Virus record (IMG/VR): IMGVR_UViG_3300028027_000197
Span: 1-27,071 of that record
Strand: one strand, 5' to 3'
DNA: 27,071 nt
Origin: a virus
The notes under the pieces were generated by a model. It had not been told where the DNA came from. It was given only the letters and a program-made list of their open reading frames with translations, and did not search any database. Positions 3,398 to 19,918 of this stretch are shown here, in pieces. Each line of letters begins with the position of its first letter. The first letter of the stretch is position 1. A program made the translations under genes and the position numbers.

Positions 3398-3631
3398 AAG
3401 TGATCTTTGGTGGATGTTTGAGCAAAGCACAGCCTTACCGTAAGCAAATACAGTTCGCTCTGTGCCTGTGATCTTTGGAGCCATGTCCTCGCACTGCACT
3501 ATCCCAGACTTATTTCAACCACCCGGCTCTAGGAATTCGCCCACCGTCCCTGCTTTGGCTTGCTCGTGTAACAGGGTTATTTAAGACTCCACCACTGACG
3601 TACCGCATGGTGTCCGAGTCATCGTGAAAAT
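3398..3631 (-). other. structured non-coding leader upstream of the YbcO-like gene
   Basis: Between the terminator of the RNA cassette (3632) and the YbcO-like start there is no convincing gene. A hairpin is visible at 3585-3620: GACTC/GAGTC and CACCA/TGGTG arms, a 3-nt bulge and a 13-nt loop. A second 5-bp stem CCCTG/CAGGG lies at 3548-3576. A minus frame (3510-3695) runs through but starts inside the hairpin of the RNA cassette and has no family features. This may be a long untranslated leader. Confidence 0.4.
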
Positions 3632-12582: not shown

Positions 12583-12775
12583 CGTCTTTTCCTTCTAAAG
12601 CCCACTCGATCATTTGCTCTTTTGTCATGCCTTTAGCCTCAAGCATGCGATCAGCAAGCGTATAAGCCATAGCCACAATGACTTTTCCAGACATTCCAGG
12701 ACGATATAAATCGTTAGCTGAAATATTTGCGGCTAAAGAACAGGCAAACTTATCCCTAATATCCATCGGTTCCAT
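12572..12775 (-). CDS. small hypothetical protein heading the replication genes (67 aa)
   Basis: The start at 12775 has GGAG six bases upstream; a TTG at 12787 is the alternative. The protein MEPMDIRDKFACSLAANISA..GKVIVAMAYTLADRMLEA is helical, with an acidic tail (EGKDDVL). Similar MDIRD.FA..A....... A...AD.ML proteins recur in phage early regions. The ribosome binding site lies only four bases downstream of the U-tract of the RNA element at 12790-12898, so expression depends on reading through that terminator-like hairpin. Confidence 0.75.
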   Translation of the reverse strand: MEPMDIRDKFACSLAANISANDLYRPGMSGKVIVAMAYTLADRMLEAKGMTKEQMIEWALEGKDDVL

Positions 12776-12789
12776 AAAGAACTCCAAAC

Positions 12790-12898
12790 AAAAAAGGGCT
12801 ACACCTGCTGTCTCACCCTTGCGGATGTTGGCGGACTGGCTTAGTACCAGCAGACAGCATGTGTAACCCCACTAAGAAACGCCGCCAAGCGTTATTTC
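12790..12898 (-). ncRNA. candidate attenuator / small RNA, copy A
   Basis: From a predicted start near 12898 on the minus strand: a leader with TTGGCGG (12888-12882), a long stem GGGTTACACATGCTGTCT (12869-12852) pairing with AGACAGCAGGTGTAGCCC (12813-12796; 16 Watson-Crick pairs, one G-U, one mismatch), and U6 (12795-12790). The loop contains CCGCCAA (12834-12828), a perfect 7-bp complement of the leader TTGGCGG. A leader-peptide-like frame MLSAGTKPVRQHPQG (12860-12813) starts in the 5' arm with GGGG upstream. The hairpin is followed directly by the ribosome binding site of the next gene, so it is best read as a promoter-proximal attenuator, alternatively as the 3' end of an independent RNA. 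The copy at 3632-3732 has the same design. Confidence 0.65.
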
Positions 12899-12904
12899 GT
12901 ATGG

Positions 12905-12933
12905 ATTATGTACGATCCCAAATAAAGTTGCAA
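12905..12933 (-). promoter_or_regulatory. sigma70-like promoter for RNA copy A
   Basis: Minus-strand TTGCAA (12933-12928), 17 bp, CATAAT (12910-12905): 4/6 and 5/6 matches to consensus. It overlaps the 3' end of the zinc-ribbon gene. The predicted start lies about 29 bases before the hairpin arm. The layout equals that of the promoter at 3739-3767. Confidence 0.5.
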
Positions 12934-18622: not shown

Positions 18623-19918
18623 TTATCTCTGATAAGCAGATGGGGGAGCAATACCACGACCAGCCCCAACTTTACGGACGTATTCCTGTTCTTGCCTTTG
18701 TTTGACAGCAAGAGGGGATTGAGCGTAAGGGCTTCCCAACAACATGGCCTGAGACATGCTAGGAACAGTGCCAGAACCTTCACCAGCACCACCCATCATC
18801 ATGCCCGGAGGTAGTACGGCCTCTAGCAAGTTAGCCCCTGCCATGCCACGTTGACCGGGAGTCTCTGCTTTAGCAAGGTCACTGATAGCCATCAAAGCAC
18901 CCACAGTACCCGCTACCCGTACAGGCTTAGTGCCAGCAGAGGTTTTCTTGGTAATGCCGGGAGTCAGTTCAGCAGGTGGCAACCCAGCAGCAATGTTTTC
19001 AGCACGAGTAGCCCTACCCAACATTTTGTTGATGTCCTTGGACTGTTGGATAGCCAACTCGTTTGTCAGTGGGAAAGGCTGATTAGTAAACGCCTTGGTG
19101 TACTCAGCTTGACCAATGTTTTGACGGGGTGTGTCAATGTATTGAGCGCCTGGAACAAAAGCGTAACCACGAGGAACAGCATTGATGTCTGCATACTCAG
19201 GCTTAAACTTAGGCTCCCCCTTTTTGTTTAAAGCAGCTTCTGGACCCATGCCAGCAAAGGCAGGCTTACCAGTACCAGTAACCAAGTCTTGAGGTGGTGC
19301 AACAGGCTGCGGTGCAGCAACAGGAGCGGCGACAGGCTTTGTGATGTCTGTTGGTTGAGCAGGTGTCTCCTGAATCATCTCCTTGACAGTGTCAGTAACG
19401 ATACTGGTCACAGGAGAGTTGGGTTGAGCAGAAGGTGTTGGTGCTGGAGCATCCACGGGAGCGGCTGTAATTGGGGTGTTTACAGGCATCTCAGGAGCTA
19501 CAGGAGCTACAGGCTTCAATGCAGCAGCACGGGCTTGAATGTCTTGAGGTGTAAGGTTGGTCTGTTGAGGCAAAGACGGCTGAACAGGTTGAAGTGGCTG
19601 CACAGGCTCAGGCGACATTGTTGGGTCGATCCTTGGGCTTTGTGGAGCTTCTGATTTACCAAACCCACCCATTAGCTTTTCTGCGCCATATGCAGCAGCA
19701 CCAAGCACAGCCAAGCCAGCAGGAAGATGCCACCAATCGTTACCAAGACGCTCTTTGACTTGGTCTAATGAACCAAGCTGAAAACCGTCTTCAGTCTTTT
19801 CAAAAGTCTTATCTTGCTTCTGATCACTGGTTTGAAAACGGATTTCGCTTTCAATCTCAGCCTTAGAAATGCCAGCAGCAGTAGCCGCTTTGCGATATCC
19901 CTCAACATCAAAAGCCAT
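18623..19918 (-). CDS. Pro/Ala-rich virion-associated protein (431 aa)
   Basis: The N-terminal 60 residues are helical (VEGYRKAATAAGISKAEIES), followed by a hydrophobic Ala/Gly-rich segment (LPAGLAVLGAAAYGAEKLMG, about 65-84), then a long low-complexity region (about 90-215) dominated by Pro, Ala, Val and Gln (PVQPLQPVQPSLPQQ, PVAAPVAAPQPVAPP). The C-terminal part is more globular and ends in a Gly/Met-rich stretch (PPGMMMGGAGEGSG). In this position, between other late genes, it is probably an internal or ejected virion protein. No enzyme motif is seen. Confidence 0.7.
   Translation of the reverse strand: MAFDVEGYRKAATAAGISKAEIESEIRFQTSDQKQDKTFEKTEDGFQLGSLDQVKERLGNDWWHLPAGLAVLGAAAYGAEKLMGGFGKSEAPQSPRIDPTMSPEPVQPLQPVQPSLPQQTNLTPQDIQARAAALKPVAPVAPEMPVNTPITAAPVDAPAPTPSAQPNSPVTSIVTDTVKEMIQETPAQPTDITKPVAAPVAAPQPVAPPQDLVTGTGKPAFAGMGPEAALNKKGEPKFKPEYADINAVPRGYAFVPGAQYIDTPRQNIGQAEYTKAFTNQPFPLTNELAIQQSKDINKMLGRATRAENIAAGLPPAELTPGITKKTSAGTKPVRVAGTVGALMAISDLAKAETPGQRGMAGANLLEAVLPPGMMMGGAGEGSGTVPSMSQAMLLGSPYAQSPLAVKQRQEQEYVRKVGAGRGIAPPSAYQR

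Follow-up and report, generated by a model that had tools for sequence, protein, structure and literature searches.

A candidate transcription attenuator preceding the replication genes of freshwater phages

A structured RNA element, referred to as element A, is located immediately ahead of a replication module in a 27,071-nt viral sequence (IMG/VR record IMGVR_UViG_3300028027_000197), which was analysed over its whole length and is called the window. Both strands of this 27-kb virus record carry genes for replication and recombination, with structural genes farther along. The best reading of the sequence evidence is that A, present in many freshwater phages, is a phage transcription attenuator of a new class. 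A probably acts in cis, with a probability of about 0.6, through nascent pairings (P1 and P2) that would compete with an intrinsic terminator and thereby gate the replication genes. The following parts are distinguished.

12933-12905, minus strand: putative sigma70-like promoter of A (-35 TTGCAA 12933-12928, 17-nt spacer, -10 CATAAT 12910-12905)
12893-12790, minus strand: element A, about 105 nt (5' hairpin, linker CUUAGU, 18-bp hairpin, U6)
12893-12878, minus strand: 5' hairpin of A (AACGC 12893-12889, loop TTGGCG, GCGTT 12882-12878)
12888-12882, minus strand: P1 5' strand TTGGCGG, pairing with 12834-12828 in a 7-bp long-range helix
12876-12871, minus strand: P2 5' strand CTTAGT, the linker preceding the terminator stem, pairing with 12845-12840
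12870-12795, minus strand: terminator stem, outer part GGGGTTACAC 12870-12861 / GTGTAGCCCT 12804-12795, inner part TGCTGTCT 12859-12852 / AGACAGCA 12813-12806
12860-12813, minus strand: 15-codon frame MLSAGTKPVRQHPQG, probably coincidental (GGGG 12870-12867, ATG 12860, stop TGA 12815-12813)
12851-12835, minus strand: inner hairpin 1 (GCTGG-TACTAAG-CCAGT), whose loop carries the P2 3' strand
12845-12840, minus strand: P2 3' strand ACTAAG
12834-12828, minus strand: P1 3' strand CCGCCAA, located at the junction within the terminator hairpin
12827-12814, minus strand: inner hairpin 2 (CATCC-GCAA-GGGTG), variable in length
12795-12790, minus strand: U-tract (U6) of the predicted intrinsic terminator
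12775-12572, minus strand: first gene after A, a 67-aa protein of no known family (Shine-Dalgarno GGAG 12785-12782)
12582-11923, minus strand: replication initiation protein (O-like, HTH_36; phrog_270 6e-33, PF13730), presumed to be controlled
11599-10616, minus strand: DnaB-like helicase (family match), presumed to be controlled

Judged from sequence and pairing, the best-supported features of A are the 5' hairpin, P1, P2 and the terminator, the first three of which are absent from the initial annotation of this region. A has the G+C-rich stem and directly adjoining U-tract of a predicted intrinsic terminator, and its terminator hairpin reaches a minimum free energy (MFE) of -42.3 kcal/mol (z -4.95, with 0 of 200 shuffles as low). 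The U-tract ends at 12790 and is followed by four bases (GTTT), the GGAG at 12785-12782 and the ATG at 12775, exactly as the initial annotation had described. The second copy of the element that it implied does exist, at 3708-3632; together with its own 5' hairpin this related element, B, has the following layout.

3744-3739, minus strand: -10-like box TATACT of B, ending 6 nt ahead of its 5' hairpin
3732-3632, minus strand: element B, related to A, with its own promoter-like site
3732-3715, minus strand: 5' hairpin of B, whose loop GTGAGAA 3726-3720 pairs with TTCTCAC 3665-3659
3707-3632, minus strand: terminator hairpin and U-tract of B (sequence, pairing)
3430-3628, minus strand: segment C, GC-rich, between B and an HNH gene

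Homologue patterns were built on the part common to A and B and searched in viral contigs, which provided aligned sets of 42 A-type and 49 B-type sequences. Covariation was measured as pair counts for a stated structure, completed by shuffles and slid controls. In the 42 A homologues, the 45 pairs of the structure are 99.9% intact and 11 of them show compensatory changes, amounting to 72 cells, a value matched by none of 500 shuffles, although such shuffles overstate the significance since the sequences within each set are related. Slid controls of the A and B alignments drop to 32-51% pairing. The compensatory changes extend to the long-range helix P2, which is 100% intact with four of its six pairs compensated (39 compensated cells, 0 of 500 shuffles as high), and to inner hairpin 2 (four of five pairs). 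The 5' hairpin is paired in 100% of the homologues, with one compensated pair and one pair varying on a single side. The P1 sequence is identical in all 42 sequences of a set that was not selected for P1, so its pairing in A is beyond the reach of covariation and rests on its own conservation and on the B elements. In B, the P1 sequence varies and four of its seven pairs carry compensatory changes, as do four of the five stem pairs of the 5' hairpin; over the 49 sequences, 99.5% of the cells are intact and 19 pairs have changed on both sides, and every shuffle gave fewer compensated cells. Two sets of helices, the terminator set and P2, are thus both kept by compensatory change in A, while P1 covaries in B only. 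The RNA itself is retained between unrelated surroundings: across 524 locus pairs whose two 300-nt flanks match at chance level, its mean identity is 91% and never falls below 84%.

The variety of stem types provides a stronger argument than the shuffle statistics. The first pattern had fixed TTACACATGCT, and the apparent invariance of the stem was therefore an effect of ascertainment. A later pattern relied on the P1 strands only, in a stem-independent viral scan for which the family size is a lower bound. Filtering of the combined set left at least 95 distinct elements possessing a terminator stem, the choice of pattern, the 10-bp filter and the distance limits having been set while viewing the data. 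Among the matches listed, many have terminator stems of unrelated sequence in an unchanged layout. The hypothesis that the stem sequence is a conserved protein site was rejected, as this stem varies freely in the scan. The broad alignment holds 94 sequences, after exclusion on inspection of L367 (one of the 95) and L307 and addition of the window. Stems this variable make its columns unreliable, so pairing was evaluated for each sequence against partners swapped between sequences. Among the matches listed, a terminator stem pairs over 10.6 bp with its own arm versus 6.6 bp with swapped arms, and P2 over 4.6 bp versus 3.0 bp.

The position of A relative to the following gene is nearly fixed. 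A codirectional gene starts 0-15 nt past the U-tract in all 42 close homologues and, among the matches listed, no more than 15 nt past it in about 93 of the 95 elements of the broad set (88 with an ATG found by script, and five of the other seven recognized by eye as GTG or ATG). Such a gap is too small for a promoter, as the initial annotation had argued for the window, and the genes must therefore be transcribed through A. This part of its proposal stands. Transcription from far upstream, which it also named, is not required: a promoter-like site lies directly upstream of A and a -10-like box recurs at a similar place in the A homologues, so a nearer origin would suffice. The gene directly upstream of A in the window encodes a 66-aa protein without family. 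In many relatives this neighbour belongs to the P22 Cro family, whereas the downstream neighbours vary (O-like replication initiation, DUF1376, ParB-like, HNH or GIY-YIG proteins). A thus occupies the gap between cro and the replication genes in many relatives, which is the position of lambda tR1. This order is seen in a complete circular genome originating from Manatee Spring, with a Cro-like gene, small ORFs, A and an O-like gene; its record leaves the replication gene unannotated and calls a reverse-strand ORF over A. The near-fixed cis position, often within this gap, supports the earlier suggestion of an attenuation or antitermination control point ahead of the replication genes.

The accompanying proposal of a leader peptide fares differently. 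Ribosomes translating MLSAGTKPVRQHPQG were supposed to open the terminator stem, and the window indeed contains the frame in the 5' arm, its ATG preceded by GGGG at a six-base spacing. Among the 42 A homologues, however, the frame ends after 15 codons in only 15; it ends after 19 codons in 16, and the remaining ones stop after 12, 13 or 16 codons or have no stop inside the element, because indels in inner hairpin 2 shift the frame end. The coding stem is wholly replaced in the broad family, and both the ATG and the GGGG belong to a stem whose conserved trait is pairing. The leader peptide was rejected on these grounds, and attenuation dependent on its translation is most improbable. The peptide SAGTKPVR is encoded both in this frame (12854, minus strand) and at 18940 (minus strand), within the coordinates of a 431-aa structural protein (18623-19918); this match was judged to be due to chance, the 27 identities in an ungapped 55-nt comparison being at background level.

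Sigma70-like sites are fewer in 12 kb of the window (5 found) than expected from shuffling (14.8), and the single promoter match of A therefore means nothing when taken alone. In its 42 homologues the promoter score is at least 8 of 12 in 32 cases, versus 23% of shuffles, with moderate matches, and in most of them 6-13 nt separate the -10-like box from the 5' hairpin. Of the B elements, 38 score at least 8, and in 36 of these the box stops 6-7 nt short of the 5' hairpin. As read from these sequences, the spacing covers a wider range and the match is weaker in A than in B. These regular -10 boxes would also suit a different function, in which A, like B, is mainly the gene of a trans-acting small RNA with its own promoter and terminator, yielding a pseudoknotted RNA of about 110 nt; the downstream genes would then be reached by incomplete termination or by an unrelated antitermination system. 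The conservation of the RNA between unrelated flanks is consistent with this reading, as is the context of B, which is directly followed by a further conserved segment (C) and not by a gene. In relatives, the position of segment C is occupied by several sequence types, one of which matches, in three loci (L003, L014 and L172), the Betaproteobacteria-1 RNA (RF02932), filed as a small RNA in Rfam. Against it stand the near-fixed distance of 0-15 nt between A and a codirectional start codon and the lack of conservation of the terminator-stem sequence in the broad family. A small RNA function is accordingly considered unlikely, though not negligible, and attenuation is preferred because of this cis position.

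The window's own segment C has no Rfam match and was rejected as a stable fold, its folding energy being not unusual (z 0.20). Likewise, A and B do not constitute a fixed pair: among 50 records of unstated completeness, both are present only in the window and in G015. In the latter, locus L268 (G015:39900-41200) holds a B-type element that is divergent: its promoter-like site reads TTGACA / TACAAT, and an otherwise invariant stem is altered with compensation (TTACTCATGC / GCAGTAGTAA).

For attenuation by A, we infer the following course of expression, termination, fold competition and triggering. A probable promoter of its own would start the RNA directly ahead of the replication genes. As this RNA emerges, the linker and the 5' loop would pair with the loop of inner hairpin 1 and the junction (P2 and P1, respectively), and the resulting antiterminator-like fold would have the terminator's 5' arm inside it. 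Once the 3' arm has emerged, the terminator stem would form instead, stopping transcription at the U-tract and releasing an RNA of about 110 nt. Read-through would take place when P1/P2 persists, or when some factor or condition stabilises it, and a ribosome could then load just past the U-tract, at the gene that opens the replication module. In pseudoknot-free folding of the broad set, among the matches listed, P1 belongs to the MFE structure of the nascent RNA in 91 of 94 sequences and is missing from that of the full-length RNA in 94 of 94; the nascent RNA of the window folds, under the same restriction, with P1 plus P2. P1 still forms in 79 of 94 controls with a shuffled middle (among the matches listed), so nascent folding mostly reflects the strength of this helix and adds little to the covariation. 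P1 and P2 have essentially no nucleotides in common with the terminator, hence their competition would be steric or topological rather than of the classic shared-strand type. The exclusion would be geometric, since the linker abuts the base of the stem and its partner lies beyond the top. Alternatively, P1 could be a loop contact coexisting with the terminator in a pseudoknot.

Several known systems combine comparable parts. In phage lambda, the tR1/nutR region places a terminator in an early operon, between cro and the replication genes. A likewise lies between cro-family and replication genes in many relatives, but differs by its pairing-conserved 5' hairpin, P1 and P2 and by its probable own promoter. 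A terminator of this kind might be relieved by an N-like phage protein, or RNA polymerase might be acted on directly, as by PUT; in either case P1/P2 would serve for recognition and not as a switch. The invariance of P1 in the 42 A sequences is what a recognition site would produce, and the cro-replication position also fits; P1 nevertheless varies freely with compensation in B, and no antiterminator gene is among those identified, which makes this explanation rather improbable. The PUT RNA of HK022 is a phage RNA element acting on early-operon transcription; A, likened to it by description, differs by ending in its own predicted terminator. Riboswitch and ribosomal-protein attenuators consist of a promoter, alternative RNA folds, an intrinsic terminator and the regulated gene. 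The order is similar in A, which is however phage-borne and whose P1/P2 has no strand in common with the terminator. In the IncI/IncB repZ pseudoknot, ahead of a replication initiator gene, a UUGGCG-type 5' hairpin loop is paired to a CGCC strand farther downstream, and the effect is on translation, close to the start of the initiator. A has the same type of loop pairing ahead of replication genes, but with an intrinsic terminator in between. More speculatively, A may be a widespread, uncatalogued phage riboregulator, whose invariant core (UUGGCGG loop / CCGCCAAC) would sense a factor or metabolite and time the replication switch where lambda uses tR1 and N.

The window also contains a catalogued phage RNA.

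10287-10221, minus strand: int-alpA RNA (Rfam RF02996; 39.3 bits, above gathering), preceding an HNH endonuclease gene

Like A, this RNA has two inner hairpins within an outer stem, but nothing in its model corresponds to P1/P2. With no match to RF02996, A was rejected as an int-alpA member. An extended -10-like sequence, TGGTATAAA, is found just upstream of the int-alpA RNA of the window.

In Rfam 15, no family scored above gathering for A or B, and a search with the element alone up to an E-value of 5 was also empty. The titles and abstracts of general papers on PUT and such attenuators contained no matching description; large candidate lists of viral RNAs may hold A unnamed. A occurs in viral contigs, a single phage genome (two GenBank records of equal length) and one contig of a metagenome-assembled genome (MAG). 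Models R1 and R2, with strict filters, recovered only this starting MAG contig from a sample of 369 bacterial genomes of one class, as did the exact core pattern from a sample of 398 genomes of the phylum.

How phages time early versus replication genes is known mainly from a few models. A is found in many environmental phages, and its covariation is strong enough for exact disrupt-and-restore mutants to be designed, which makes this control directly testable. With A as a marker, early promoters and replication modules missed by gene callers can also be annotated. In MW202462.1 (L272, 817-1728), for example, a reverse-strand ORF is annotated over A and the adjacent downstream gene, a 233-aa replication gene, is left out.
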